Shown here: piece after piece, positions 7,042-47,458 of the stretch
Layout of the letters: every line of letters starts with the position of its first letter
Numbering within the stretch: position 1 is the stretch's first letter
Source of the DNA: Pomphorhynchus laevis
Lineage: Eukaryota; Acanthocephala; Palaeacanthocephala; Echinorhynchida; Pomphorhynchidae
DNA: 64,000 nucleotides
NCBI GenBank assembly: GCA_012934845.2
Contig: WNNJ02001140.1
Location: 25,631 to 89,630, forward strand
Direction: 5' to 3'
Program-made: the position numbers and the translations under genes
Notes under the pieces: generated by a model
Seen by the model: the letters and a program-made list of their open reading frames with translations, nothing else
Database searches by the model: none
Told to the model about the DNA's origin: nothing

Positions 7042-7780
7042 TTGGTATTGAGAAGAGTAGTATGTTTAGCTAACTATGTCGGTTCACTCAAGAGTTACAA
7101 AATCACTCGATGTCGAATTCTACGAAACATTGCTTATGTCAAACGTGCATCGGTTTCACCAATTCTAACAACTCGACACAAGCGCTTAAGAGTTTATTGG
7201 GCGGAACAAAACCTCAAAACGGATTTCAGTAAAGTCATCTTCACGGATGAATGCTGCGCCACCATGGACGGCCCAGATGGATGGTCAAGTGGTTGGGTTG
7301 TTTATGGCCTCGAAACCCCTCACTGCATTCGCAGGCAACAAGGTGGCGGGGGGGATTATGTTTTGGGCTGCCATACTAAATGACGAACTTCTAGGTCCAA
7401 TCATTGTTCCAGACGGCGTGAAAATGAATAGCGAATATTACTGCCGATTATTGGGCGAAAACTTTATCCCATGGTATACATGTAAAAATGATGAATTATA
7501 TGATCGGACAATTTTCATGCACGATAATGCTCCAGCTCACTCCTCGTCAAAAACACATGTGTATCTTGCAGATCACGGTATTACTGGTAACAGTCTGATG
7601 TTATGGCCTCCAAATTCCCAGGACTTGAACCCAATTGAGCATTTATGGGCAATGATTAAGTCCCACGTCTACAAGAACGGTCGCCAGTACTTCTCAAAAG
7701 CGAACTTATAGAAATCTATTCAGGGAGCATTTAATATTACCCGTGAAAATATTAAAAAAAACCACACATTCTGTTGATGC
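7042..7780 (+). pseudogene. Tc1/mariner transposase, DD37E type, frameshifted
   Basis: This is a partial DDE transposase in two frames, 7042-7383 and 7247-7711. The first frame ends the helix-turn-helix linker and carries the first catalytic aspartate in IFTDECC. The second has MFWAAIL, the second aspartate in FMHDNAPAH, and the catalytic glutamate in WPPNSQDLNPIEHLW. I count 37 residues between the second Asp and the Glu, so this is DD37E rather than the DD34E of classical Tc1. A run of seven G at 7348-7354 marks the switch of frame. Six G would keep one frame, so a single inserted base explains the break. The frame ends at a TAG (7709-7711). The N-terminal DNA-binding region is missing or unrecognisable, and I found no clear terminal inverted repeats. 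Confidence 0.85.
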
Positions 7781-19398: not shown

Positions 19399-22300
19399 GT
19401 AAAATTTATTTAATTACACATATAACCTTATGTATTTAAAGTTTAAATATTGTCAAATCAAAAAGTTGATAAGAAATTCAGTTCGCGATTTTGAAAATTT
19501 CGAGAATTTTAAAATTCTCGATTTCGAGAATTTGCAATATACAAATTCTACATTTCATCACAACTAATGGGATAAATAAAACAAATTACCTCTTTTGACA
19601 TGTGGAGTTTAGTTTCCCGATAATAGAACCACTTTCAGAGATACCTAAATTGTATTATTAGTACGACATTTAAAATCGGAAGAAGTTTGCATTCCAAGGT
19701 GTTTACACTTTAAAATGTAAACTGCTTCACGTGATCACGTTTAATAGACCAGGTAATGGCCAGTAGCCTGATCGCGTAGCGCGTGAAGTGAAGATGGTAG
19801 ATCTCTTTAGATCTTGTTCCATCCTGCAACCGCCTTAAGCAGGGCAGCCCCCTGTGAAATGCGGTTGGATGGACCGTAGTAAGTTTAGTCTGAATCAACT
19901 AAACTAGGTGACGGCACCGAAAAAGCAACGTTAAGAATTATGACTTAAAAGTTACATGTACTCAACAATATTGGAAAAATACGTAAGTACTAATGATTTC
20001 AATTTTAGATCTTTTAAATGTAACAGAAAAAATTGTATAGTTTGTGATGTTATAAATAATAATAATTGTATTGTAAGTAATACGACAAACAAATGTTTTT
20101 CATTAAATATTAATAATAATTGTAACTGCAATACCGCAGGTGTAGTGTATCTAATACAATGTACATGTGGATTGCAATATATAGGAAAAACATATCAAAT
20201 GTTAAAAACTAGGTTTAGGCAACACATATATAATATACAGCATAATAGTCAAACTATATTTCATAAACATATGAGATTAATAGGACATGATATTAAAAAC
20301 TGTAAATTATTTATTTTAGAACATATTATCGAAGAAAACATTTCAATATTAAATCAAAAACTATTAGAAAAAGAAGATTTTTGGATTAAAACGCTTAATT
20401 CCATGTACCCATTAGGATTGAATGACGTGGTACAAGGAATTGGCAGAAGTAGTATAATACATAATAAACAACTATATTATAATAATCCGGTTAAACGCAA
20501 ACCAAGAAGTCATGGTGATAAAAGGAATAAAAAAATAAGTTAAAAATATTAAAAAAGATATGTATATATGAGCAATTAGAAATATAAAAACAACTTTTAA
20601 GAGATAATAAACTAAAATATCTTTGTAAATATAAGAAATTTTTCTAAAGATATTTGTTCAATAAATCAAAGATCAATTAACGAATGTGATAGGTTGAGTT
20701 GTATAATAGACAGTTATTGTAATATAAAATACTATAATCGGACAATAAATGTTAATAATAACAATAAAAAATATACACTAACCATAAAATTCATCAATAA
20801 ATGTATAGATAACGTAAATATAGGTAGAATTTTAAATAATTCTCAAAGTAAAGAAACAAAAGGAACAGATTTAAGTAAATATGTTCCTAAAATAAGGTAT
20901 AAGTTGTTACCGCCATTAGGACGAAAAATTTGTAATTATAATAAAGAATTGAAATCAACATGTAATGATAATATTAGAAACATTAAAGAAACTGAATGCA
21001 ATTGCTAAAGCGACAATTAGACAACAACCTCTGCCTAGTGTTTAAGGATGCTCTGTTGAGTAATTCAATATGTTTAAGGGCGCAAGCCTCAATCAATTAA
21101 TCAGTGTGGGAAACGCCTTTATTCACAATGTCACACAGGCAACCGAAACGACCAGTGTGTACCTCATTCTACTGATGAGTGTTGCCGGGTACTCATCATT
21201 TCGATGCTGAAGTGGTCGTCTAGAAGTGACATGGTGATTGAAAGTCGTGAATCTAAGTCCAGTCTATCAAGCAACACCATTTAGTATAAATGCCGTATTT
21301 CGTAAGAAATCCTGGACCGTTGTTTACTCAGCACATCTGTGCACTACTATTATACATGCCGTATCCATTAAGGATCCAATGAGTGCAACGACAATTCAGC
21401 AACAACCTCTGCTTAGTGTTTAAGGATGGTCCGCACAGCAATTCGATCTGGTAAAGAGCGTAAGCATCAGACAATTAAGCAAAGTGTCGGAAACGCCTTT
21501 ATTCACAATGTCACACAGGCAACCGAAACGACCAGTTTGTACCTCATTCTACTGATGAGTGCTGCCGGGTACTCCAACATTTCCATTCTGAAGTGGTCGT
21601 CTAGAAGTGACATGGAGATTGAAAGTCGTGAATCGAAATTCAGTCTATCAAACAACACCATTATATATTATATATACATAATATACATTATATATTATAT
21701 ATATTATTTACCAGTAAATGAATCAAATCTAGTCTATCAAGCAACATCATTTTCTTTAAATGTAGCATTTCGTAAGAAATACTGGAGGGTTGTTTACTTA
21801 CCACATTTGTTTACCATCATTATGATTTTGCGCATAATCTTTATGTTTAAAGATAGTAATGTCAAATTATTAGTTAAGTTATACGTTCTCGAAAAGAGAG
21901 TACTATCTATGTTTCCGGGTCTAAAAATTTATATAATAAAAAACGTTCTTGTTCGAAAGCGAAAGCCTCATACTTTTAAGCAACGCGTCGGAAATGCCTA
22001 CTTTTACTGTCACAAGGCAACCAAAACAACTAGTGCGTACTTCATTCTATTGATGAGTATTACCGAGTACTCCACTTGGGCGCTAAAGTAGTCTGCAAAA
22101 AGTGACATGGAGCTTGCTATTCGTTGATAAAGCCAGTTTCAGTTTGTAACTATATTATATATAATGAGTTCGCAGAATGTGTTAAACTGTGCTCCAGGAG
22201 CTAATAAACTTCAATTTCATATTCGTAATGTTGCCAAAAACCGGAGTTCGATTACATGCAGAGCAGACTTCCTTATCATTCCTAAACGAGCTGATGGTAG

Positions 22301-25300
22301 CCGGCAGCACTCATCAGTAGGTGAACTACCATCAGTCGTTTCGGCTGCCTTGAAGGAAGTTTGCTCTGCATGTAAGCTATTCATCCTCGTTATGGATGCC
22401 GTATCCAACAATCTAAACATACAGCTTCCGTGGACGATTCTATATGCTGATGACGTCATGCTTGCATCCGTAGATAAAGATGACCTCCAACAACAAATAA
22501 ACAGCTGAGAAAATCGACTCAAGCAGCTCGGTCTACGCCTGAACGCGCGTAAAACGGAATACTTGACCACAAATATGAATGATGATCAGCCACTACAGTT
22601 TGGAAGCACACACTGAACCGAACAACTGTGTTTATATACATTTGCTCTACCATAGCGACAGATGGTAACCTACACGCAGAGTTCACTTATCGAGTAAATG
22701 CAGCCTGGATGAAGTAGAGGTCAGTTACAGGTATTATCTGCGATCCAAAGATAAAAGACCGACTGAAGTCGAAAATTTACAAAACTGTAATACGACCCGT
22801 GGTCCTCTATGGTGCTGAATGGTCCTCTATAGTGCAGAAAGTTGCCGCAATGCAGACGAAGATTTCCCTATGGACAGCAGGGAAAACCTTAAAGGATAAT
22901 GTCCGGAACCAAGAAATAAGGAACCAGTTTGGCGTAGTGCCAATAATAGAGAAACTTCGCAAAAGGCGACAACAATGGTACAGCCAAGTTTTCCGCGCAA
23001 GCGAACACCAACCATCAAATAAGTCCATCGCTGTGACAGTGAATGGAAAGCGTCCGATATGAAGGCCGAAACTACGATGGATGTCATACGTCATGATTTG
23101 ATAAGTGTTGGACTGGAAACCAAAGACGCTCTCGATAGAGCCAAGTGGAGGCAACTCTCAAAAGCAGCGGACCTCGTCCCCTACACTGGATAGACGATAA
23201 AGAAAAAGAAGAAGATATTATATGTAATATATAATATATATTATATATAATATATAATATATATTTAAATTATATATAAATGTATATTTATACTATATAC
23301 AAATGTATAATATATATTATATATTATATATAATGCATATTATATATTTTAAACATTGAATTATGTGCGAGCATTAGTATAACATATCCAAGATATTAAA
23401 TATAATTGCAGTTTGTACTTTAACCTATATGTGATACTGAATTATAGTGAAATACAGATAAATTCAATCAAACTTTTATTCGATTGCTTTTATGGCAAAA
23501 GTGTTTTATTGTTATTATTTCTTATTAGGTCCAGGACTTGTTCATAAGTAATCTTGGAAACGATCACTAACAGGGTAGAAAATCTAAATTACAATAAAAT
23601 CTGATAATTTTTATTTACTCCAATTGAACAACCGCATGTAAAGCATCCACAAACGATTTCTGTTCCTCTTTGCTATATATCCTTTTATCATAGCCATTTA
23701 TTCCGTTTTTAATGTCATCTATTATACAAGTTAAGATCTTTTGAAACCGTAATCTTTTATGAACTCTTACCAGGCTTTGGACTCGTACTGAAATAGTCTT
23801 GGAAACGATCCTCTTCATCATCAGCGTAGAAATTCTAATTTACCATAAGGTTTAATAATGATTAAATATTCAAATTAAATAACCGCATAGAGAGTATCGT
23901 CAAGCCATTTCTTTTCCTCTTTGCTATACACCCTTTTGTCATCGTCATTCACTCCGTTTGTAATGTCCTCTATTATACAAGTTAAGATTTTTTGAAACCG
24001 TAATCTTTTCTTAACATACCAGGCTTTGGACTCGTGCTGAAATAGTCTTGGAAACGATCCTCCTCATCATCAGCGTAGAAATTCTAATTTACCATAAAGT
24101 TTAATAATGATTAAATATTCAAATTAAATAACAGCATGGAGAGTATCTTCAAGCCATTTCTTTTCCTCTTTGCTATATACCCTTTTGTCATCGCCATCCA
24201 CTCCGTTTGTAACGTTATCTATTGTACAAGGTCAGATGTTTTAAAAGTGTAATCTTTTATGAACTTACCAGGCTCTGGACTCGTGCTAAAATAGTCTTGT
24301 AAACGATCCTCCTCATTATCAGCGTAGAAATTCTAAATTACAATAAAATTTGACAATTTTTAAATACTCAAATTGAATAACCGCATGTAAAGCATCGCCA
24401 AGCCATTTATTTTCGTCTTTGCTCTTCACCCTTTTATCATCGCCATTCACTCCGTTTGTAACATCATCTATTATACATTTTAAGATTTTTTGAAACAGTA
24501 ATCTTTTATGAACTGACGAGGCTTTGGACTCGTGCTGAAATAATCTTGGAAACGATCCTCTTCATCATCAGCGTAGAAATTCTAAATAACAATAAAATTT
24601 GATAATTTTTAATTGCTCAAATTAAATAACCGCATAGAGAGTATCGTCAAGCCATTTCTTTTCCTCTTTGCTATACACCCTTTTGTCATCGTCATTCACT
24701 CCGTTTGTAATATCCTCTATTATACAAGTTAAGATTTTTTGAAACTGTAATCTTTTATGAACATACCAGGCTTTGGACTCGTGCTGAAATAGTCTTGGAA
24801 ACGATCCTCTTCATCATCAGCGTAGAAATTCTAATTTACCATAAGGTTTAATAATGATTAAATATTCAAATTAAATAACCGCATAGAGAGTATCGTCAAG
24901 CCATTTCTTTTCCTCTTTGCTATACACCCTTTTGTCATCGTCATTCACTCCGTTTGTAATGTCCTCTATTATACAAGTTAAGATTTTTTGAAACCGTAAT
25001 CTTTTATTAACATACCAGGCTTTGGACTCGTGCTGAAATAGTCTTGGAAACGATCCTCCTTCTCATCATCAGCGTAGAAATTCTAATTTACCATAAAGTT
25101 TAATAATGATTAAATATTCAAATTAAATAACAGCATGGAGAGTATCGTCAAGCCATTTCTTTTCTTCTTTGCTATACATCCTTTTGTCATCGCCATCCAC
25201 TCCGTTTGTAAAGTCATCTATTGTACAAGGTCAGATGTTTTAAAACTGTAATCTGTTTGAACTTACCATGCTTTGAACTCGTGCTCAAATAGTCTTGTAA

Positions 25301-28300
25301 ACGATCCTTCTCATTATCAGCGTATAAACTCTTAATTTCAATAAAATTTGATAATTTTTAAATACTCAAATTGAATAACCGGATGTACAGCATCTCCCAT
25401 CAATTTTTCATCTGTTTTATTCAACACTGTATTCTTTTGATGTAAAACACGATTCATTACACACATGATCGATGTCAATAGCAGAAAGGTAAATAATCGT
25501 AATGACATTTTCGAAATGTATTTAATACCGAATATAGTTTTTAACTAATGCCAGGACAATTCCTCATACCAACCACAAAAGGCGCCAAATTAATTATTGT
25601 TTAAAATGTATATAATCAATTTTATAAAGTATCAATCTAATTATTATGTTTTAATTTTTTATTGACTATTTTTTGCATTGTTAAACCATATTTTTTATTT
25701 AAATGATTTATAAAATTCTAGTTTTAAATTTTTAATTGATTTCCAAGCAATGCAGATTGTAAATTTTTACAAAAAGTTATTATATAATGATAACCAAATT
25801 CAGACTAAATGACAATGTTATCTAGTAGATTGTGCGAGAAGCAAACATCTATTCTGAGAATCAACATGTCTTTATAATATGGATAAATTATATAATATAT
25901 AATTAATTATATATTATATTATAATATAATATAGATTAGCACGTTTGTACATAATTGATATTAAAATTATTAATTATTAACTATTTATCTAATGATATTC
26001 AAAGAGTTATTTAATAATTATTATGAAATTTGTTTTTATATTTTATTCTTTGTGCTCATTTGGATAACTTTTAAATCTCATATTGAACTTGGGCATAACG
26101 AATTAAAATTTTGAAATTTAATTAAATATCATTAAATGTATTTATCTACATCGGACATAATACTCTGTGGATAATATTGTTAATAAACAAATTATATTAA
26201 TTAGTTTTTATAATAATATTATAATATTATCTTGATGTTAGAGATATTACCTGATATAATGATATCTTTAAGATGCAATATAATATTAGTATGTTTGATG
26301 CCATTTTTATTGTTGTTCGAGGAATATAGATTAAAACTGACAATAAGATCAAAATTTTAAAAATTGTATGTCATATATTAATCTAAATATTCCAATGATC
26401 TTGTATTATAATATTTTTTATTACAAATTTTTATTAAAGTGATTGATATCTTGTTGTGCCAAACGAATTAAATCAGCTAACTGAGTCTACGTATTGTTAT
26501 ATAATTATAAAATAAACAAAACATAATAATAATGCTAAATCAAAATTTAATAATTAAATAATAAAATTAATAATTGTTTTTAGATTTTCTATAATTTAAA
26601 TCAAGTTAAAAAATAAAAATAAAAATAAAAAATAAAAAATAAAATTTAAAATAAACGTCATTTTTATGAATTGACTAATAAATAACAGACGTTGTATCAG
26701 AATAAGAATTAGAGGTCATCAGGAGGAACTGCTATGCTATCAGGTTTCGGCCCCTAACTCCTCTACCCAACATAGCAGCGGGGCCAAATACATGCTAATG
26801 ATGTATTTCCTCTGAAATAACTATCTAGTATCTTATTCTAATGCAAAGTATATTATTTATTATCCATCCATAAAAATTTGCCACTTAAGAGTTTAAATTT
26901 ATTCTTTATATTATTGTGTTGATTTATATATTTTACTATTTTCTGCTTGATGTTATTTTTATAGTAACCTAGTTTAAAATATGTATCTATTAAATTATTT
27001 AAATGATTTTGAAGAAAGCCAATATCATTACATATTGTTGCAATTCTTAAAATTTCATTATTTAATGTATTATATTTTATATTATATGGTATGCATGAAT
27101 GCTCATGCAAAAATATGTTTCTTGTAAATTTAAATATGTCATCTTTACGATATAAATTAATAGTAGTTTTAGTTAATGTTAATTTAATGTTCATATCTAG
27201 ATATACACCTTCTTTATCATTAATATTGGTTTTGTTAAGAATAAGGCTTTCTGGATAAATGTGCTCACTAATTGAATAAAAATTATTAGAATTAAATACA
27301 CATATATCATCAATGTATCGAAACATATATTTCATATATTTATATTGTTTAGATTTAGTTTTTACACAGTTATGAACAAATTCATATTCTATAAAGCTTA
27401 AAAACAAGTCAGCTATAATTGGGCTACTATTACCACCCATTGGAACACCTTTTACTTGTCTAAATATAGATGTCCCTACTTTTAAATAATTTTGATTTAT
27501 CAAAATATTTAAGGATTCTATTAATTCAATTTTATCCATATATTTATATTTATTTGATGGTTTAATTTTTGTTAGATAGGCGTTATAATTATTATAACAT
27601 ATATATGTATATCTTTTTCCGAATATAAGGTTAATTAATTTTACTAACGCTTCTTTAATATCTACTAAATCTAGATTTGTATAAAGCGTACTAATATCGT
27701 ATGTATTTATATTTTGAAAATTTATTCCTTTTGCCTGTTCTAAAAAATGTGAAGTAATGTGAAGTAATGCTTCACATTTATATCTTTACCTATATCATAA
27801 ATTAGTTGACTTATTTAACGTTGCTCTATTAGTTTTCTTTGTATTTTATCATCTAAATTTTTTCCTTCTACCACGTATTCAAAATCATCACTTTCTTTAT
27901 ATGCAAGTACATATTGTGTGACGTTGGCCATCAGACGGCTTTATTTATAGTGTAGCTCCTTTTAATGATTGACACCCGCATCCCGCGTGGTTAATTTATT
28001 TTTTATGTCGCTTCCTATATTATTAAAACTCTGTTAAGCTTAATCCTATCTCCCCGACATTGACTTTTGCAATGTGTACTCGCTGGAAGATATACAACAC
28101 TCCTGGAACATGATGTATGTGCATTTATATTAAATTTCAGATTTGTGAGTCGATATGATGTGCTTTATATGTAATGCGGAAAGGTGCAAATATAGCAAAT
28201 GTGAAATTAAAATCAATTTATATCACATAATAGTATACTCGTTAAAAAGGAATTTGTTAAATTCGAAAATATCAAGTATTTCATTCAGTGATCATACGGA

Positions 28301-40300: not shown

Positions 40301-43300
40301 TGACGACTCGTTTTTTCCACTGAGATAGCTTATTCACGAATGCATAAACATTCTGGAAACAGAGAATCCGATTAGCATTTGAATTTTGTAATTACAAATT
40401 CGGATCGTTTGTGTCCAAAAATATCAGCCAGGTAACACATAATTACTAAGAATTCTTAATCTTCAAACTTTTCCGACGCTTTGTGACCGTCATTTTGCAA
40501 AAACACAGCAATTTAATTAGACGGGCTTACCGCCCTATTCAATACACGACCTCGAGAAAGCCACCTTACTTCGGTGTGAAATAACAATACGCTATCTTCC
40601 GCTTTTACTTCCTCGCAAAATGATTTAAAAATTATATGATTAAGCGCTTTTCCACAAATGAAATTCACAACTTCAACTACAGGGGCTAGAAATTCTTTGA
40701 GAGTCCGCAACATTTTTGAGACAAGTGCCTGACGGTAAATAGCACAATGAATGCTATCTGGGGCAACATTTTTCACTAACCTCACAAAACCTGGTTTGTG
40801 CCCAAACATTAAAGGTGCACTGTCTGTGCAGATAGAACCAATTTTATTCCAGTCGATACCATGTGTTTTTAAGAAATCATTTAACAACCCGAAAACGTTA
40901 GTTGCTTCGGCAGTTAATTCCAACTTTGTGCAAAATAAAAACTCATCACAAAATGACGCGTCTTCTACATAAGAAGACGTCTTCTTCATTCGATTGTCTT
41001 CAACGAAGACAATCAAATGACTCATGTGGTGACATCCGTTGATTCGTCCAGCTGTAAACTAATTCGCATTGGGCTTTATACACTGAATTGTTCTGCAATA
41101 ATTATTGTAAGTAAATATACTTTAAGAGACACTAGAAAAAAGTAGTTTTAAAAGTAGAGATTTTCTACTTTTAAAAGTAGTTTTATTAAAAAATTGAAAA
41201 CTAAATATTAAAAAATTGTAAACTTTATTAAAACTAAATATTTAGTGCAGCTATTTAATTATACCTTTAGAGTTACTATAGAACTACAATTTTATCACGC
41301 TTAAATCCGTTCGCTGTCATTGTGAGAATACAAATTAGTTTTATATTTATATTTAATTATTTTTAATTAGGTTTGTCATCTAGAAATAATTTATATTTAT
41401 AATAAATAATAATTAATACTTTATATTTATAACTATAAATATATATTTTATCGGTTACTTATTTGGGATATTTTCTTCTATTACAAATACCATCATTTAA
41501 TCGTTTTAATTTTGCCTATTTTTAACAACTTTATTTTCATTGAATTTATTTGTATTTTATTAAGGAAGACAGTGTTCAAATCTAAAAACGAGTTTTATTC
41601 CAGACGATACGACTTGCTCTCGCTTTTATGCTTGCTTTCCTTCTAATCCTTATGCATATTTAGTTACATGTCCGAAAAATCTCCAATGGGTCAGAAACAC
41701 TAGCAGTTGTAGTGTGTCATCGCAAACATGCCAAACGGTTCCGTACAAAGAAGGAGATTTTGTAACAGGTAACCATAAATGAAATTCGTATTTTTATCGT
41801 TTAACTAATAGAATGCAGATTTATGTGTCACATGTTCTAACCAAATTAATTTGTTATCAACAAAAAATATAACCTTTTAATATTTAGCTGCTTTTTAAAA
41901 CAAAATTGCCAGAAAGTGAGCTCAAGCTGTATACTTCTATAAATATAATAAATATTATAAAAATAAACCAAGAAAATATAAATTTTTATTTGATTTATAT
42001 TTGATAGCGTAAAATTTTTATTTATTAACATAAATCTACATTATTTTAAATTATTAAATATTTTTAAAATAGTTTTATATTTTTATTAATCAATATTTTT
42101 ATTATAAAAATTTATTCGTACATTTAGTTTTGTTTTTCACAAAAAATATAATGTTTATATAATTTTATATTATTATATTGTTATATTATATATTGTTATA
42201 TATTGTTATTATTTTTTATATAAAATAATATTTATATAATGTTAAAATAAACGAGTTCATATTTGTAACAAAGCGAGTCCATTTAAAAAAGCATAACACC
42301 CTGCATTTTTACAGCATTTGGAAAAGCTAAAATTCTGTATAAAATAGCCTGAATTGTTCGGGAAAGCGAATTACTCAAATTGGAAGGAACAGTTCGGAAA
42401 ATGTCGATACATTGATGCAAATCAACATAAATGTTTTAAGACTGCTAATTTTGGCATTAGTGTAAATCATTTAAATTACCTTTCATTTATTAGTATCCAC
42501 TAAGGTCGTATTATTTTAAATAGTTGATAATGATCCATTATTGATAAAGAATTATTGAAGCTGGATCAAAAAGGATGAATTTTTTATTGATATTTTGCTA
42601 ACTTCTTTTAGCATCTTCAGTAAATTACAATTTTCTGAAGATGTAACTAATTTTCAGCGAGCAGGGATTGAGTTAAAAGTATGCCAGAGAGTCTTAGAGT
42701 TGAATAAAGTGATGATTTTATGCTGCCAAAAGAAGTTGCATTTGGTACGTGGTAGGTTGGATGATACCGGCGAAGAGCAAGATAGGAATCACGGAAAGAC
42801 GGAGTGATCGAGCGGAAATCACGCCTGAGAGAGCGATGATAGACTCGAAAATCATGACGGAGTTGACGCTTTGAGAGTAGGCATTGGATGTCAAACAATA
42901 GGGCACGGTGCAAGCGACCGTGTGGGTTAGGCTTGAAGGGCAAGAGAAGATCGAGAGTGAATGTGGGTTCAGAGTCGAAAATAAAGGCGAAATCTTTAGC
43001 CCTCTACAACTTAACTCAACCTTGAGTACTACTGCTTTTATCAACTAAGAATACAGAGTGGTGATATATATTCATTAACGAGGGAGACAAATGTTCTGTT
43101 TAGTTGAACTTATTTAAAATCAATAAAATGCTAATGTCTATAATGTTTATAACTAATGTTATTCTTTAAATAGTTGATAATGATCCATTATTGATAAAGA
43201 ATTATTGAAGCTGGTTCAAAAAGGATGAATTTTTTATTGATATTTTGCTAACTTCTTTTAGCATCTTCAGTAAATTACAATTTTCTGAAGATGTAACTAA

Positions 43301-46300
43301 TTTTCAGCGAGCAGGGATTGAGTTAAAAGTATGCCAGAGAGTCTTAGAGTTGAATAAAGTGATGATTTTATGCTGCCAAAAGAAGTTGCATTTGGTACGT
43401 GGTAGGTTGGATGATACCGGCGAAGAGCAAGATAGGAATCACGGAAAGACGGAGTGATCGAGCGGAAATCACGCCTGAGAGAGCGATGATAGACTCGAAA
43501 ATCATGACGGAGTTGACGCTTTGAGAGTAGGCATTGGATGTCAAACAATAGGGCACGGTGCAAGCGACCGTGTGGGTTAGGCTTGAAGGGCAAGAGAAGA
43601 TCGAGAGTGAATGTGGGTTCAGAGTCGAAAATAAAGGCGAAATCTTTAGCCCTCTACAACTTAACTCAACCTTGAGTACTACTGCTTTTATCAACTAAGA
43701 ATACAGAGTGGTGATATATATTCATTAACGAGGGAGACAAATGTTCTGTTTAGTTGAACTTATTTAAAATCAATAAAATGCTAATGTCTATAATGTTTAT
43801 AACTAATGTTATTCTTTAAATAGTTGATAATGATACATTATTGATAAAGAATTATTGGAGCTGGATCAAAAAGGATGAATTTTTTATCGATATTTCACTA
43901 ACTTCTTTTAGCATCTTCAGAAAATTACAATTTTCTGAAGATGTAACTAATTTTCAGCGAGCAGGGATTGAGTTAAAAGTATGCCAGAGAGTCTTAGAGT
44001 TGAATGAAGTGATGATTTTATGCTGCCAGAAGGAGTTGCATTTGCTACTAAGTAGGTTGAGATGAGACCGGCGAAGAGCAAGAAAGAAATCACGGAAAGA
44101 CGGAGTGATCGAGCGGAAATCACGTCTGAGATAGCGGTGATAGACTCAAAAAGCATGACGGAGTTGACGCTTTGAGAGTAGGCATTGGATGTCAAACAAT
44201 GGGGCACGGTGCAAGCGACCGTGTGGGTGAGGCTTGAAGGGCAAGAGAAGATCGAGAGTGAATGTGAGTTCAGAGTCGAAAAGAAAGGCGAAATCTTTAG
44301 CTCTCTACAACTTAATTCAACCTTGAGTACCACTTTTTTATCAATTAAGTATACAGAGTGGTGATATATCTATTAATGTGCTCACATGCATGATATAACG
44401 AGGGAGACAAATGTTCTGTTTAGTTGAACTTATTTAAATCAATAAAATGCTAATGTCTATAATGTTTATAACTAATGTTATTCTTTAAATAGTTGATAAT
44501 GATACATTATTGATAAAGAATTATTGGAGCTGGATCAAAAAGGATGAATTTTTTATTGATATTTCACTAACTTCTTTTAGCATCTTCAGAAAATTACCTA
44601 CTCGTTTTAATATTTTTAATAATTTTAATTTTAGTCATTTTCTGAAGATGCTATCAGAGGTTAACGAAATATCGAATAAAATTTTCCTTTTGTTATCCAG
44701 CTCTGATAATTCTTTTAAAAACAATAATAAAATCGTAACAAAGGTGAAAACGAAGATATAGGGCTTAAACCCACGGTCTATCGATTTAACTTGGCTGTTC
44801 GATATTTCAAACCTATCAACCTTGGCGTTTATCATTAATTTAGTTTTACTGTACCGAAAAAGAGTAACTAACTATTCAAACGTCTAAAAAGGACAACCAG
44901 AAACGTTTACAGTAAACACAATTATGTGGAATTCACCCCAGCAACATAGTCGGAAAGGTATTTTGAGGGAAATCGATTTATTTTCGAACGTTGAAATTCC
45001 ATGTAATCCTTTATCTGTTAATCCAACAGAATATCTGTCAGAGGATTTATTTACATAAAAGAGATTTCGTAATAATTTTATAATTTTTAAAGGTTTATTA
45101 ATTTTTTAATCTTTATATCAAAAACCAATGTAAATTACTCTGAGGTGAAGAGTAATTTTAGGGGTAGTAGTGATATGTATTAAAGTTTAAGATATAATTT
45201 AGAAAAGTTATAAAAGTTATTTTCTAATTTTTAGAAGTTTATAAAAGTTAGAAAATACCTAGCGAAGTTTTGAATTTTTTTTTAAATCGAAATTATTAAG
45301 TTAAGAAACTAACTTTAAATAAAAAGCTAATGTAATTCTAAAATTAGACGTGTACATTTAAAAATTATTAAAAAACTGTAATAAATGAAACATTAATAAT
45401 TTTTAAATAAAATTAATTATTTTACATTTTATTTTTCTTACAATATTTATATCTAATTAGTAAATTAGAAAATTAATTATATACTTTTAATAAATTTAAA
45501 ATTATTAAATTAAAATTATTCGGAACTAAATATAGTACGACTCGGAATATTTATTTTACTTAAAATTAATAATTTCTTAAAATTAATAATTTTTAAATAA
45601 AATTAATTTTAAATTTTTATTTTTAAAATTTTAATTAAAATTATTAGTAAAATAATTAATAAATTATTATTGAAACTAAATTATATATAATTTATAAATA
45701 TCTAATATACTAAATATCTAATACTTTATCTTATATATAAGTATATATATAAGATAAATAAGATAAAGATATAAATAAGTAAATATAAGATAAATTCTGT
45801 ATATATTGAATATACATTTCCAGTATACATATTCAAGTTCCAGGGTCATTTTTAAACGACTTTGATGCAAAAATCAAACATGGAAAAATATAAAATCAAA
45901 TATGAAAAAATACAAAATGAAATATGAAAAAATTTAAAAATATAAAATCAAACGTGGAAAAATACAAAATGAAATATAGAATTTACAAGTTTCAATTTAC
46001 AGTTAGCAAGTTTCAGATGCTTTTGAAACGGCTTTATGACGAAAGTCAAATATGGAAAAGTCAAATAGTCACTATTTATAATATTGCGTCTTATCAACAT
46101 ATACGAAACATATTGAACAATTTAAACAAAATAAAGTGATAATTAAAATAAAATAATAAACGATAGACAATTTTAAACAAAGTGATATATATCATTTAGC
46201 ATCATAATTTAACAAATTTTCGGCCCCTTGTCCTTCGTAGGTAAAATTGATAATAAATAAATCTTAATGAATAAATTTTCGCATTCTGATATTTTGAACA

Positions 46301-47458
46301 TAAAATATTATTGAGATTCAGATTTATGATATTACTTATTAATATTAACATATAATATTAATATTATATATTTTTAAATATTTACATTAATAAATTTGTT
46401 CATAACTTTATATTAATCATTTTATATTAATAAATATTTATATTTAAATAATTATACATTTTACTTATTATTAAAGTAATATTTAAATTGAAAGTTCAAG
46501 TTATTTAAAATAACTAAAGTTAAAGTTTATTAAACTATAATTAAAGTTCAAGTCAAAAATTTAAAAAATAATATATTTATGTCAATAACTTTGTATTTAC
46601 AAAACAACAAACAACTTCAGAGTGGAAACGTTTAATGGATAGATTGCGTGTATCCGACCCTGCTGCTTTATTGGGTTTAGGGTAAGAAAATATATGATGC
46701 AGTAGTTTTTCTAAAATCATTCTGTTCTAATACAAAATATTTTTAAATTAATTGAGATTTTGTTTTCTAAAATAATAAAATATTCGTTTTTAGTTTTTCA
46801 AGTATGGCTCTATTATATTTATATATTGTTTAAGTTTACTAATTATATTTCTCAAAATGTTAAATTACCTTTTAAATTGTTTTATTCTCTTTCGCTAGCG
46901 AAAAATTTTTATTCGTTTCAAAACTATCTGCACACGTATTACAGAACAAACACAGATTGTGATATTGATCACCTGCAATTGGATTTAGGGCCGCATCAGT
47001 ACGACGGCTGCCCAATTAATATACTTAAGCCTTATCGGGCAGATATTAATCATCGCATGCGATCCGAATATCGTCGATACATAGAGGATCGAAAAATCTC
47101 TAGCAAAATCTCAAATAAATCGTTTTTCCGTTATTACCACGATCGCGGATATGGAATATTTCGTCATGATCCTAATAATTGTGCATTTTACCATCAGTGC
47201 ATGTACATTTCGGGGATGTTTAGTCATTCTACCTTGAAATTGTGTCCAGGTCAATCAGTATTTAATTATGATTGGTCTATCTGTGTGTCTTCAGATGAAT
47301 TCGTAGAAACTAGATTGGGATCAACGATGCCTGATCAGGCTGACCTTTGTAATGCAGCACTCCACTCGGAAAATCGATTCGATACGGCTACCAATATACG
47401 GGATCTTTCAGAAATGATATACAGTAACATTAACTCTTACTTAAGCGCTCAATCGTAA
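19224..47458 (+). CDS. Secreted EGF-like / chitin-binding (CBM14) protein gene, five exons
   Basis: My model joins exons 19224-19398, 32119-32256, 41565-41768, 46621-46681 and 46945-47458. All sites are GT/AG, phases run 1,1,1,2, and the coding total is 1092 bases: 363 residues plus TAA. Residues 1-24 look like a signal peptide ([20 protein letters not shown]). An EGF-like stretch with many cysteines follows (Cys31 to about residue 104; [19 protein letters not shown]). Residues 108-160 form a CBM14 domain with six cysteines spaced C-x13-C-x5-C-x11-C-x12-C-x6-C. A second, incomplete CBM14-like block lies in the last exon (CAFYHQC then [14 protein letters not shown]). CBM14 domains bind chitin in peritrophic matrix and cuticle, so an extracellular chitin-associated role is inferred. 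Introns of 4.9-12.7 kb are full of transposons. Further small exons could exist. Confidence 0.7.
19440..19955. other. Intron sequence, no gene seen
   Basis: Inside intron 1 of the EGF/CBM14 gene. 19480-19545 has repeated cgagaatttt palindromic text. 19700-19930 is GC-richer and lies just upstream of the GIY-YIG reading frame. It may be the Penelope-like linker or end, but I cannot place it. Confidence 0.3.
19956..20543 (+). pseudogene. Penelope-like element GIY-YIG endonuclease fragment
   Basis: The 195-residue open frame begins with a Cys cluster ([10 protein letters not shown], residues 21-30). It then has a GIY-YIG nuclease fold: GVVYLIQC at about 62-69, YIGKT at 75-79, a catalytic-type Arg in TRFRQH near 85-90, and a Glu near 138-140 (LLEKEDFW). 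In Penelope-like retroelements this domain follows the RT and nicks the target DNA. No RT precedes it on this strand, so it is a fragment. A Penelope-like RT lies 6 kb away in the opposite orientation (27539-26853). Confidence 0.85.
20694..21008 (+). pseudogene. Possible further Penelope-like reading frame
   Basis: 104-residue open stretch after the GIY-YIG frame, rich in Asn and Lys. The central part ([17 protein letters not shown]) looks protein-like, and the composition matches the upstream frame. It may be the start of the next copy in a head-to-tail arrangement, which is common for these elements. No domain is recognised. Confidence 0.3.
21010..22140 (+). repeat. Tandem repeat of about 380 bases, three units
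   Basis: The phrase tcacacaggcaaccgaaacg recurs at 21131 and 21511, and in decayed form near 22010. Each occurrence is followed by cattctactgatgagtg (cattctattgatgagta in unit 3). Units 1 and 2 are 380 bases apart. Unit 3 is displaced to 498 by a TA microsatellite at 21661-21715. Upstream shared text includes cagcaacaacctctg and ttcgtaagaaat-ctgga. Open frames through the units are accidental or remnants. I find no complete gene. Confidence 0.6.
22252..22375. repeat. 124-base imperfect palindrome
   Basis: The left arm ttacatgcagagcagacttc pairs with gaagtttgctctgcatgtaa at the right end with one mismatch. An inner pair, ctgatggtag with ctaccatcag, is perfect. RNA from either strand would form a long hairpin. 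The reverse strand carries the same ccgaaacgac and ctactgatgagtgctgccgg text as the neighbouring 380-base repeat. Confidence 0.6.
22376..23195 (+). mobile_element. RTE-type non-LTR retrotransposon 3' fragment
   Basis: Readings spread over frames match the C-terminal half of an RTE-like ORF. At about 22440-22560 is [20 protein letters not shown] followed by [18 protein letters not shown], the catalytic YADD box and the following helix. At 22799-23062 is VLYGAEWSS, then [17 protein letters not shown] and GKRP. The end reads RWMS/DVIRHDL and [13 protein letters not shown] near 23100-23190. Stops and frameshifts abound. RTE-clade assignment comes from these motifs. The 5' half is absent. Confidence 0.75.
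23196..23510. other. TA microsatellite and 3' flank of the peptide gene
   Basis: 23215-23345 is a TA-rich microsatellite. On the minus strand an AATAAA polyadenylation signal lies at 23510-23505 (plus-strand tttatt), 32 bases after the stop codon of the repeat-module gene. Confidence 0.6.
23542..25508 (-). CDS. Secreted tandem-module protein gene, 16 exons, family not recognised
   Basis: Exon 1 (25508-25380) encodes [16 protein letters not shown], a signal peptide, and a short spacer (43 residues). Seven two-exon modules follow: 25330-25267/25217-25132; 25082-25016/24965-24880; 24830-24767/24716-24631; 24581-24518/24467-24382; 24332-24269/24218-24133; 24083-24020/23969-23884; 23834-23771/23718-23633. 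A last short exon (23583-23542) ends in TGA. All introns are about 50 bases with GT/AG ends, and phases alternate 0 and 1 without exception. The total is 1224 bases, 407 residues. Each module is 50 residues (51 in module 2). It starts [15 protein letters not shown], continues STSPKP, then TNGV, then DDKR, then YSKEEKKWL and ends DTL-Y/H-A. The Lys-Arg is present in all seven and could be a convertase site. There are no cysteines outside the leader. It may be a secreted polyprotein precursor or a repetitive structural protein. No family is recognised. Confidence 0.8.
25380..25508 (-). CDS. Exon 1 of the tandem-module gene (signal peptide)
   Basis: Exactly 43 codons from ATG (25508-25506) to CCG before gttatt. 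The hydrophobic core [15 protein letters not shown] marks a secretory leader. The exon's last part, [10 protein letters not shown], resembles the end of each module ([10 protein letters not shown]), so the leader exon may have been built from an ancestral module. Confidence 0.75.
25590..25620 (-). promoter_or_regulatory. Candidate TATA box of the tandem-module gene
   Basis: On the minus strand the text ttgattatatacatttta lies about 90-110 bases before the ATG. TATA-like words are frequent in this AT-rich DNA, so this is only a positional suggestion. Confidence 0.25.
25621..26228. other. AT-rich intron sequence, no gene seen
   Basis: TA-rich text at 25880-25935 and otherwise unremarkable AT-rich DNA between the peptide gene and the Penelope-like copy. 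Confidence 0.4.
26229..26393 (+). repeat. Direct repeat, left copy (about 165 bases)
   Basis: It shares gatattacctgatataat, gatgccatttttattgttgt and cgaggaata with 28507-28662 in the same orientation at high identity. The two copies bracket the Penelope-like RT. They may be the element's LTR-like ends, a long target duplication or an older repeat. Confidence 0.6.
26716..26816 (-). repeat. Structured RNA candidate after the Penelope RT, copy 1
   Basis: Two interleaved complementary pairs: ctgctatg (26729-26736) with catagcag (26771-26778), and ggcccc (26749-26754) with ggggcc (26780-26785). The order A-B-A'-B' would give a pseudoknot. An outer pair tcatcaggaggaa / ttcctctga surrounds it. The second copy at 49378-49433 keeps the pairs with one compensatory change. 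Confidence 0.45.
26853..27539 (-). pseudogene. Penelope-like reverse transcriptase (copy 1)
   Basis: 228-residue open frame holding RT palm blocks, with [10 protein letters not shown] and [12 protein letters not shown], and the thumb-side segment down to [11 protein letters not shown]. The N-terminal fingers ([10 protein letters not shown]) lie just upstream with the frame still partly readable. About 90 residues of the same C-terminal part recur at 49762-49505. Compared with known Penelope proteins the C-terminal linker and nuclease are missing. Confidence 0.85.
27951..28154. other. Sequence upstream of the Penelope-like RT
   Basis: It is GC-richer than the surroundings (gacacccgcatcccgcgtgg). 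It probably belongs to the element's 5' part or a neighbouring repeat, with no frame recognised. Confidence 0.3.
28155..28448 (+). CDS. Unrecognised Cys-rich open frame
   Basis: 97-residue ATG-to-stop frame with cysteine pairs [14 protein letters not shown] at the start and [12 protein letters not shown] in the middle. These could be zinc ligands. No family is recognised. It is inside intron 1 of the EGF/CBM14 gene between the Penelope-like element and the right-hand direct repeat, so a transposon-derived or degraded gene is as likely as a real one. Confidence 0.25.
   Translation: MMCFICNAERCKYSKCEIKINLYHIIVYSLKRNLLNSKISSISFSDHTDKKRCFKCNIGRALCCKQITIAKLQEQRYIGQLITDTGYGLNVEHYFVW
28507..28662 (+). 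repeat. Direct repeat, right copy
   Basis: Partner of 26229-26393 in direct orientation. Both contain cctgatataat, gatgccatttttattgttgt and ataagatcaaaattttaaaa. Separation is about 2.3 kb. Confidence 0.6.
28663..29768. other. AT-rich intron DNA with short duplications
   Basis: Repeated phrases such as aaaagaaaatttgtaaccaaaatctgt occur at about 29086 and 29428, a short direct repeat 342 bases apart. No gene is seen. The 79-residue frame at 29616-29377 is AT-rich and unconvincing. Confidence 0.4.
29769..30061. repeat. Long palindromic (foldback) element, about 290 bases
   Basis: The left arm runs from aaatttgaagaaagctgtca through accatcgcaaaatttattca to ttatctctcaaac. It returns as its reverse complement ending tgacagctttcttcaaattt. 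Arms are about 110 bases with very few mismatches. The centre holds repeats of tctcaaactttttt. It resembles a foldback MITE. No ORF. Confidence 0.75.
30062..30987. other. AT-rich intron DNA, no gene seen
   Basis: Ordinary AT-rich sequence, with a TA/ATT microsatellite-like tract at 30830-30990. Confidence 0.4.
30988..31800 (-). repeat. 800-base block with an inverted copy at 59210-60012
   Basis: The whole block is the near-identical reverse complement of 59210-60012. It contains repeated aaattgtacgataaatt text at both ends and an exon-like coding piece in the middle (31571-31426, minus). The two copies sit in introns of two different genes 28 kb apart. Confidence 0.75.
31426..31571 (-). pseudogene. 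Exon-like coding piece, copy 1 (coiled-coil-like end of a protein)
   Basis: After a possible acceptor (cgcag) the frame reads [18 protein letters not shown] then [17 protein letters not shown], ending [10 protein letters not shown] and TGA. The heptad-like charged pattern suggests a coiled coil. The identical piece occurs at 59428-59573 on the plus strand. It could be a host 3' exon captured in a repeat or part of an unknown mobile element. Confidence 0.35.
32119..32256 (+). CDS. Exon 2 of the EGF/CBM14 gene
   Basis: 138 bases between aaaattag and gtaaag, phase 1 to phase 1. It encodes [26 protein letters not shown] and [12 protein letters not shown], a laminin/MEGF-style EGF repeat. The joined split codon with exon 1 is GAA (Glu59). 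Confidence 0.75.
32257..32898. other. Intron DNA with TA-rich tract
   Basis: No gene is seen. 32640-32890 is a long TA/ATT-rich simple-sequence tract. Confidence 0.5.
32899..34245 (-). mobile_element. Family A non-LTR element, 5'-truncated copy 2 with intact 3' end
   Basis: The minus strand carries the C-terminal two thirds of the family A RT. The frame 34241-33966 has [11 protein letters not shown] and CGVPQGSVL and then hits TAG at 33965-33963, exactly where the next glycine would be. Frame 33923-33528 has [12 protein letters not shown] and [15 protein letters not shown]. Frame 33597-33052 gives the tail with [15 protein letters not shown] and [15 protein letters not shown] 3' UTR of about 130 bases ends in four ttcta repeats (plus strand tagaa, 32899-32925). 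A short 3' microsatellite tail is usual in CR1/L2-type elements. The 5' end is truncated in the RT at 34245, next to TA-rich DNA. Confidence 0.85.
34246..34570. other. TA-rich tract with a short piece of the 600-base direct repeat
   Basis: 34250-34470 is TA-rich simple sequence. At 34389-34420 the text ttttagctttcttgacagtatcattta is a third, partial copy of the end of the direct repeat found at 34571 and 38513. Confidence 0.5.
34571..35175 (+). repeat. 600-base direct repeat, left copy
   Basis: It shares its whole length with 38513-39125 in the same orientation, at an offset of 3942. Landmarks are ttcgtttcgcacgcttt, cgaaattcgaatcatcc, catcatgatctatagaaac, gtgtacagtgatgctgatag and agctttct-gacagtatc. 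Identity is high but not perfect. The pair encloses family A copy 3, like a pair of LTRs or a segmental duplication. Confidence 0.7.
35176..35439. other. AT-rich DNA, no gene seen
   Basis: Short stretch between the direct repeat and the family A copy 3. Nothing recognisable. Confidence 0.3.
35440..38150 (-). mobile_element. Family A non-LTR element, copy 3, heavily decayed
   Basis: Minus strand. A fragment at 38147-37818 is followed by endonuclease pieces (37999-37472; 37646-37395 with [20 protein letters not shown], the glutamate block seen in copy 1 as CITESWHSLDD). RT pieces follow at 36452-36193 ([19 protein letters not shown], compare SAYRKHHSTLTACTQIF in copy 1) and 35848-35621 ([14 protein letters not shown], compare NTKKSTLMWIT). 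Frames change every 100-250 bases. It is the oldest of the three family A copies. Confidence 0.75.
38513..39125 (+). repeat. 600-base direct repeat, right copy
   Basis: Partner of 34571-35175. A frame through it ([18 protein letters not shown], then SLLSIEYY) looks weakly protein-like, so the repeat may be part of an older transposon coding region rather than an LTR. Confidence 0.7.
39126..39312. other. Intron DNA, no gene seen
   Basis: Nothing recognisable. Confidence 0.3.
39313..39546 (+). CDS. Unrecognised short open frame with an internal 44-base duplication
   Basis: 77 residues. A 44-base unit starting aacagcgtaaaagcagcagt is repeated in tandem at 39339 and 39383, so the same DNA is read in two frames. 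The second half, [19 protein letters not shown] then [15 protein letters not shown], looks protein-like with less AT-biased codons. No family is recognised. It may be a degraded coding piece rather than a gene. Confidence 0.25.
   Translation: MLSSFVFFRNSVKAAVEAFCSMTKQRKSSSRGFLFNDTWCNPLWYPYQCSNRTVDRCIELPVSSLFDEKPLEYFVDA
39566..41045 (-). mobile_element. hAT-type DNA transposon, partial
   Basis: The plus-strand left end begins cagtgtttcttaacc at 39566, a typical hAT terminal repeat. The matching right end was not found. The minus strand holds a decayed transposase. 41025-40513 contains [31 protein letters not shown] and [16 protein letters not shown]. 40337-40074 contains [16 protein letters not shown] and [10 protein letters not shown]. 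Around 40060-39840 are HDFWLRQI and SLRAGLIYF in other frames. These blocks match the ZBED5/GTF2IRD2-related branch of hAT transposases. The N-terminal zinc finger is missing. Confidence 0.8.
40513..41025 (-). pseudogene. hAT transposase core fragment
   Basis: 170-residue open frame. The phrase [20 protein letters not shown] carries an RNase-H-fold aspartate, and [14 protein letters not shown] is the most diagnostic block of this family. It ends at a stop where the element's frame shifts. The next part of the protein continues at 40337-40074. Confidence 0.8.
41046..41564. other. Intron DNA, no gene seen
   Basis: Contains a palindrome around 41140-41172 (aagtagttttaaaagtaga with tctacttttaaaagtagtt). 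Otherwise AT-rich. Confidence 0.4.
41565..41768 (+). CDS. Exon 3 of the EGF/CBM14 gene (complete chitin-binding domain)
   Basis: 204 bases between ttattaag and gtaacc, phase 1 to phase 1. It encodes one complete CBM14 domain with six cysteines and the conserved aromatic between Cys2 and Cys3 (CSRFYAC). A single domain on a symmetric 1-1 exon is the typical shuffled-module layout. Confidence 0.8.
41769..42514. other. AT-rich intron DNA, no gene seen
   Basis: Nothing but AT-rich low-complexity sequence up to the tandem array. Confidence 0.4.
42515..44860 (+). repeat. 650-base tandem array, three units plus a partial fourth
   Basis: Units start at tttaaatagttgataatgat: 42515, 43165, 43815 and 44484. 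Units 1 and 2 are each 650 bases and almost identical; I saw one difference near the start. Unit 3 is 669 bases and more diverged. Unit 4 is cut after about 375 bases and carries a different insert between catcttcag and ctgaagatg. Each unit holds that 9-base hairpin and ends with aatcaataaaatgc, which includes an AATAAA. Open frames inside (for example 42647-42943 minus, repeated at 43297-43593) are carried along by the duplication and match nothing I recognise. Confidence 0.8.
44861..46620. other. AT-rich intron DNA with simple repeats
   Basis: 45700-45800 is a TA/AAGATA microsatellite. 45870-45975 holds short tandem units of the type tatgaaaaaatacaaaatgaaa. The 71-residue frame across it is low-complexity and rejected. 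Confidence 0.4.
46621..46681 (+). CDS. Exon 4 of the EGF/CBM14 gene
   Basis: 61 bases between aacttcag and gtaaga, phase 1 to phase 2. It encodes [20 protein letters not shown], a linker between the chitin-binding blocks. It is small, but the only open frame agrees with both neighbouring exons. Confidence 0.6.
46945..47458 (+). CDS. Exon 5 of the EGF/CBM14 gene (last exon)
   Basis: The acceptor cgtattacag at 46944 fits phase 2. The frame runs to TAA at 47456-47458. An open frame also extends upstream to an ATG at 46760, but that part is AT-rich intron-like sequence. The exon contains CBM14-like spacing C-x5-C-x14-C-x12-C (CAFYHQC to CVSSDE), lacking clear first and last cysteines, and a hydrophilic tail. 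Confidence 0.7.

Follow-up and report, generated by a model that had tools for sequence, protein, structure and literature searches.

Multi-copy precursors of the neuropeptide or hormone type are cut at dibasic sites, and amidation requires a glycine before the dibasic site. The schistosome micro-exon genes (MEGs) are parasite-specific and form secreted, highly variable proteins from many short exons, the exons measuring 3-81 bases and the introns up to 5 kbp (PMC10526429). The birth of introns by tandem duplication is a known process as well (PMC4974935). Here, we describe a repetitive gene in a 64,000-nucleotide stretch of the Pomphorhynchus laevis genome (assembly GCA_012934845.2, contig WNNJ02001140.1, positions 25,631 to 89,630 of the forward strand), referred to below as the window; its contig is designated C164, and C104 is another contig of the same assembly. 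We propose that the gene encodes a lineage-specific, secreted, acidic polyprotein precursor, shaped by unequal exchange and cut at Lys-Arg. This reading, drawn from sequence comparison, is a tentative one with a probability of about 0.43.

Gene structure and encoded protein

A real gene structure is present on the minus strand of the window, running from position 25508 to 23542. Its 16 exons join into an unbroken open frame of 1224 coding bases (407 residues) and comprise a 129-base exon 1, seven modules of paired A and B exons and a 42-base terminal exon. The A exons are 64 bases long in six modules and 67 in one, whereas the B exons have 86 bases in all seven. The intron within a module, between A and B, was named I, and the intron between a B exon and the next A exon was named J; there are eight J-type introns in total, seven following the B exons plus intron 1. 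All 15 introns begin with GT, end with AG and have sizes of 49-52 bases. The start phases of the exons alternate strictly between 0 and 1, and only the A+B pair keeps the frame. The tandem array was detected independently by TRF (period 249, 7.3 copies, 87% matches, score 2617). The anatomy described in an earlier note on this DNA (leader exon, seven exon pairs, terminal exon, GT/AG borders of 15 introns, phases and coding length) was confirmed by splicing, as was its AATAAA signal, which starts 32 bases past the stop codon. The features are as follows.

25380..25508, minus strand: exon 1, hydrophobic leader (signal-peptide-like, residues about 5-18) and probable B-like tail; from the splicing model, shuffles and hydrophobicity
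25331..25379, minus strand: intron 1, a J-type copy; from the splicing model and comparison with C104
25132..25330, minus strand: module 1, A exon 25267-25330, intron I, B exon 25132-25217; from the splicing model
24880..25082, minus strand: module 2, A exon 25016-25082 (67 bases, extra codon), B exon 24880-24965; from the splicing model
24631..24830, minus strand: module 3, A exon 24767-24830, B exon 24631-24716; from the splicing model
24382..24581, minus strand: module 4, A exon 24518-24581 (donor GTCAGT), B exon 24382-24467; from the splicing model
24133..24332, minus strand: module 5, A exon 24269-24332, B exon 24133-24218; from the splicing model; its A exon and intron I equal those of the first C104 module
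23884..24083, minus strand: module 6, A exon 24020-24083, B exon 23884-23969; from the splicing model
23633..23834, minus strand: module 7, A exon 23771-23834, B exon 23633-23718; from the splicing model; counterpart of the second C104 module
23542..23583, minus strand: terminal exon, an A exon ended by an in-frame stop; from the splicing model and shuffle test
23505..23510, minus strand: AATAAA polyadenylation signal; read from the sequence

The 407-residue product has a calculated pI of 4.42, a calculated mass of 48 kDa and one cysteine. MSLR is followed by a hydrophobic stretch with a 13-residue Kyte-Doolittle mean of 2.44, a value that describes hydrophobicity; this core is in line with the N-terminal leader proposed previously. 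The motifs ascribed to every module (NFYAD, DRFQDYF or DRLQDY, NGV and a Lys-Arg within DDKR, with NGI and YDKR in module 7) hold in general; module 1 departs with SLYAD and DRLQDYL, and Lys-Arg is not singled out among the conserved positions. DKR is invariant across the eight distinct modules aligned from both loci. Seven Lys-Arg sites split the product into eight fragments, the last of 29 residues. The repeat units have pI values of 4.15-4.83 and the first fragment, which includes the leader, 5.80. This acidity of the repeats led us to discard an antimicrobial-peptide reading.

Both ends of the gene resemble parts of a module. Alignment of the terminal exon and the following bases with the A exon and intron I of module 7 extended over about 110 bases and scored 57, a value reached by none of 500 dinucleotide shuffles (maximum 33); its strength resides in the exon and not in the bases past the stop. 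By this comparison, an A exon ended by a stop codon makes up the terminal exon. Exon 1, at its end, aligned with the last part of the module 4 B exon at a score reached by 2 of 500 shuffles and, more weakly, with that of module 7 (19 of 500). Intron 1, itself of the J type, lends independent support, and exon 1 probably ends in the tail of a B exon. With a B' tail on exon 1 and an A' terminal exon, the gene reads as eight B–A units with Lys-Arg between them, and its layout may be written as leader–B'–[J]–(A–[I]–B–[J])×7–A'–stop. The Lys-Arg sites coincide with the junctions between these eight units. This coincidence is the best pointer to a polyprotein, and it is from here that we infer cleavage.

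We propose that the ancestor was a two-exon gene, in which leader and B were joined by intron J to A and a stop, and which encoded one short B–A peptide. Duplication in tandem, with translation continuing through the former stop, would have led to the present layout and placed a new intron class, I, at every junction, possibly, though with weak support, out of the old 3' untranslated region (3'UTR). Unequal exchange between the 249-base units would then have gained and lost modules. The product is predicted to enter the secretory pathway, and prohormone-type proteases would cut the seven Lys-Arg sites between the B–A units, releasing several acidic peptides of about 50 residues and the final 29-residue peptide. 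The module number would set the count of near-identical peptides per precursor. The complete account joins a two-exon gene multiplied inside itself, a new spliced intron per junction (possibly derived from the gene's 3'UTR), a protease site wherever one former gene adjoined the next and a peptide dose in the host gut set by the module number (seven versus two, with flanks about 1% apart); it is unlikely to hold in all of these parts at once.

A second locus and the change in module number

A DNA search of the genome pointed to two places, the window locus on C164 and a locus on C104. The C104 copy has two modules, with exons of 129, 64, 86, 64, 86 and 42 bases, five GT...AG introns and a product of 156 residues in which two Lys-Arg sites delimit three fragments. 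The start, leader, stop and AATAAA are present at both loci. The protein-level search of the genome, for which a shortened query of 206 residues was used, gave at least 18 matches at E up to 10, all within the same two loci. No further paralogs in the P. laevis genome were found among the matches listed in either the DNA or the protein search.

The modules are related in a mosaic manner. The first C104 module shares its A exon (0/64 differences) and intron I (0/50) with module 5 of the window, and its intron J with modules 2 and 6 (0/49). The second C104 module is nearest to module 7, with 1/64 differences in A, 1/52 in I, 6/86 in B and 2/49 in J. Intron 1 of the C104 copy differs at 1/49 positions from the intron before module 5 and at 2/49 from intron 1 of the window. 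Modules 2 and 6 of the window have the same coding sequence, save for the extra codon, and their introns differ at 1/99 positions. The mosaic fits the pattern expected from unequal exchange within the 249-base repeat, and it is compatible with a change from seven modules to two as well as from two to seven.

The two flank blocks, of 653 and 736 aligned positions, are 99.4% and 98.5% identical between the loci, respectively; the 3' side diverges somewhat more, at about 7 in 180 (counted by eye). With flanks so similar around seven modules at one locus and two at the other, the change of module number is, on this sequence evidence, a recent one. The recent amplification proposed in the earlier note is thereby borne out, insofar as the two-module locus attests a change of module number.

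The C104 copy adjoins an inserted element located at about 92983-96534 of that contig, approximately 0.3 kb upstream of the start codon of the two-module gene. We take it to be a hAT element on account of its ends and 8-base duplication. The insertion is accompanied by the 8-base target duplication ATCTAGTA, and the window has the empty site. The hAT element also bears on the depositors' protein GJ496_004348: residues 137-268 of that model (132 residues) are contained letter for letter in our own splicing of C104, and its first 136 residues are encoded inside the adjoining element. The fused hAT start may be an annotation artefact.

The two copies could be either recent paralogs or structurally different alleles. 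For the genome of P. laevis, long reads came from ten worms and short reads from one, and RNA was pooled from six (PMC7310846). The seven-module and two-module loci could accordingly represent two alleles of one gene sampled from the ten long-read worms and not two genes, as the 98.5-99.4% identity of the flank blocks and the filled and empty hAT sites would suggest. The shared block, however, ends near positions 23301 and 28495 of the window, and beyond these no alignment of at least 95% identity and more than 100 bases continues between C104:22000-161999 and the whole 89,630-base C164; the only other match of this kind is a repeat in the opposite orientation. Assembly misjoins could have produced this breakdown of the flanks. 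We consider the allelic explanation possible, if somewhat doubtful.

Other repeats lie near the two copies. At 26471-27760, the window carries a 1.28-kb repeat insertion that is not present at C104; it contains a reverse-transcriptase-like frame (26856-27539, RVT_1 just under the Pfam cut-off) and has at least 39 further copies in the genome at 98-100% identity. The end of another contig, C1791 (116-6778), matches C104 at 99.3-100% across a stretch that takes in the greater part of the hAT element, beyond which the two diverge; bases 2901-5900 of C1791 are identical to C104 and the next ~880 match at 99.3%, which may reflect either assembly redundancy or another haplotype. A repeat at about 90735-91090 of C104 recurs on several contigs (C785, C1215 and C1741 among them), where tandem copies are spaced by about 361 bases, and is probably a satellite of this genome.

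Maintenance of the frame and competing readings

A number of results weigh against the precursor reading, and the first of them concern selection. dN/dS was estimated with a codon model on the eight distinct sequences among the nine modules (seven from the window and two from C104). With omega free the log-likelihood was -487.02, and the best one obtained with omega set to 1 was -487.09; the values at omega 0.5, 0.3 and 2 were -488.6, -492.5 and -489.3. Omega 0.7 and 1.5 stayed within one log unit of the best, and 0.3 was worse by about 5.4. Silent changes showed no clear excess, with 13 seen versus 10.8 expected (P 0.23, 50 changes placed at random). Variable columns amounted to 45/150 in the exons, 18/49 in J and 13/50 in I, the latter counted on the six 50-base copies of nine. 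Hence, dN/dS among the modules is indistinguishable from 1, which would be consistent with weak constraint, with diversifying change or with too little power. The distribution of variable columns over codon positions 1, 2 and 3 (19, 7 and 19 of 50 each) gives a hint that second positions are constrained.

The remaining points of this kind concern the protein, the splice sites, the gene ends and the annotation. The conservation of Lys-Arg is not special, as it belongs to 22 invariant columns of 51 in the module alignment, and its acidic context (DDKR) is not diagnostic. AlphaFold2 applied to GJ496_004348 was uninformative, with a mean pLDDT of 38 and short helices at low confidence. The J donors are weak (GTTATT, and GTTGTT once). 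Five CCT chaperonin introns of the same genome, the borders of which were read by hand from translations, have the donors GTTAGT, GTATGT, GTAAAT, GTAAGC and GTTTGT; T occurs at the fifth donor base in 0/5, and one of these introns has 58 nt. GTT starts and short introns are thus native to this genome. The 3'UTR alone, compared with the seven I introns, gave no significant local alignment, as 85 to 241 of 300 shuffles scored at least as high, and its global alignment was no more than suggestive (2 to 31 of 300); another 3'UTR stretch gave no signal against intron I and B (380 of 500). The homology between exon 1 and the B exon of module 4 becomes moderate once 300 upstream bases are included (25 of 500 shuffles). 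Finally, the depositors' model GJ496_004348 starts in the hAT element and has two modules without a leader.

Several of these results would equally suit a decaying or non-coding tandem array, a former gene with repeats that change without constraint and yield no stable product. Besides dN/dS of about 1, exons that vary about as much as introns and weak J donors, the array reading draws on the annotation: the protein search gave no record for the seven-module locus, and C104 is annotated only as a transposon-exon fusion. Against such decay, all nine modules are free of stops and have no broken splice dinucleotide. Among 3000 neutral simulations on a module tree, assumed although exchange between modules is evident, the nine tips were stop-free in 6%, kept all splice dinucleotides in 2.1% and did both in 0.07% (2/3000); these simulations started from an intact consensus, scored splice sites picked after the sequence had been seen and yielded somewhat more variable columns than observed (84.9 versus 77). 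Moreover, the sole change in exon length is one whole codon, whereas length differences of 1 and 2 bases occur among the I introns, and both loci kept the start, leader, stop and AATAAA. We read the simulations as moderate evidence for what would be a maintained coding gene. In the earlier note, a dN/dS near one across modules was to indicate a non-coding satellite. The value did come out at about 1; a satellite is not implied by it, since neutral change would seldom leave the frame and the splice sites of all nine modules intact. We regard decay as improbable.

A different reading accepts the gene and its secretion, and leaves the protein whole. The product would then be an acidic tandem-repeat protein of the surface or host interface, with a structural role, multi-copy binding or the function of an antigenic decoy, and Lys-Arg would be an ordinary part of the linker. 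The gene evidence (splicing, the C104 copy and the simulations) fits this equally well, and the product is acidic (pI 4.42) and built of repeats. dN/dS near 1 suits the weak amino-acid constraint of a repeat protein, and Lys-Arg is no more conserved than the other invariant columns. The position of all seven Lys-Arg sites at the junctions of the eight B–A units argues against an uncut protein. We consider it a serious possibility, less probable than the processed precursor and clearly more so than decay. The processed precursor, the whole protein and the decaying array are answers to one question; the allelic explanation belongs to a separate one and does not exclude any of them.

Relatives and known systems

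The precursor, if this is what the gene encodes, has no described relatives among the sequences searched. In a set of 5.8 billion proteins, a search that detects only proteins sharing short words with the query, within set length limits, gave a single match, GJ496_004348, a hypothetical protein of Pomphorhynchus laevis. The module alignment searched against proteins gave no match at E up to 10. Pfam returned ten weak matches at E up to 10, none above the curated cut-off, and Rfam none in the window at gathering scores. Among sequences of the PDB, five matches at E up to 10 were found, none convincing, the best at 0.026 (RecF, 29 profile positions). The view that the module belongs to no known family was upheld by these searches, and the gene is, as far as they reach, an orphan so far found only in Pomphorhynchus laevis.

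Acanthocephalans have no gut of their own and live inside fish intestines. If expressed, the gene would be a candidate factor at the worm-host interface with a measurable variable, the module number. In addition, its DNA may still record, in a young example, how a small gene turned into a repeat precursor and how a repeated intron was born on the way. Among the titles and abstracts listed on acanthocephalan secreted micro-exon genes, effectors, excretory-secretory products, repeated-exon genes and neuropeptide precursors, none describes this gene. The secreted factors of P. laevis look little studied in its genome paper, since neither 'signal peptide' nor words starting with 'secret' occur in the main text (PMC7310846); the word 'intron' is absent from it as well. 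In two later P. laevis papers (PMC9523657, PMC9153150), words for gene models, GJ496 and secretion led to nothing on this gene.

Elsewhere in the window, positions 42512-44600 hold four copies of one stretch at about 650-base spacing, with three similar open frames. An open frame at 46760-47455 carries a chitin-binding Peritrophin-A domain (CBM_14, above the Pfam cut-off). A GIY-YIG endonuclease frame at 19956-20540, above the cut-off, was read as part of a Penelope-type element, and a DDE_3 transposase fragment at 7247-7708, also above the cut-off, as mariner-like.

The closest record, GJ496_004348, resembles the window gene in its last 132 residues, which are part of the two-module C104 product, and differs in its hAT-encoded first 136 residues, the missing leader and two modules instead of seven. 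The nearest idea is that of the MEGs, which likewise are parasite genes of many small exons with a secreted product (predicted in our case). Here, in contrast, the exons have 42-129 bases, mostly in near-identical tandem pairs of 64+86, and the introns 49-52 bases; membership in the schistosome MEGs was rejected, as these sizes differ from the MEG definition (PMC10526429). The protein searches, which depend on short words in common with the query, returned no MEG; the product was not aligned directly with any MEG protein. With multi-copy peptide precursors the gene shares a hydrophobic leader and near-identical repeats separated by Lys-Arg; it differs from them in units of about 50 residues that are acidic, have no glycine preceding the dibasic site and are each split by an intron, and in processing that is presumed. 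Finally, the proposed origin of intron I resembles intron birth by tandem duplication in that a new intron lies at the junction of tandem duplicates (PMC4974935), with the difference that here it would recur seven times in one gene.

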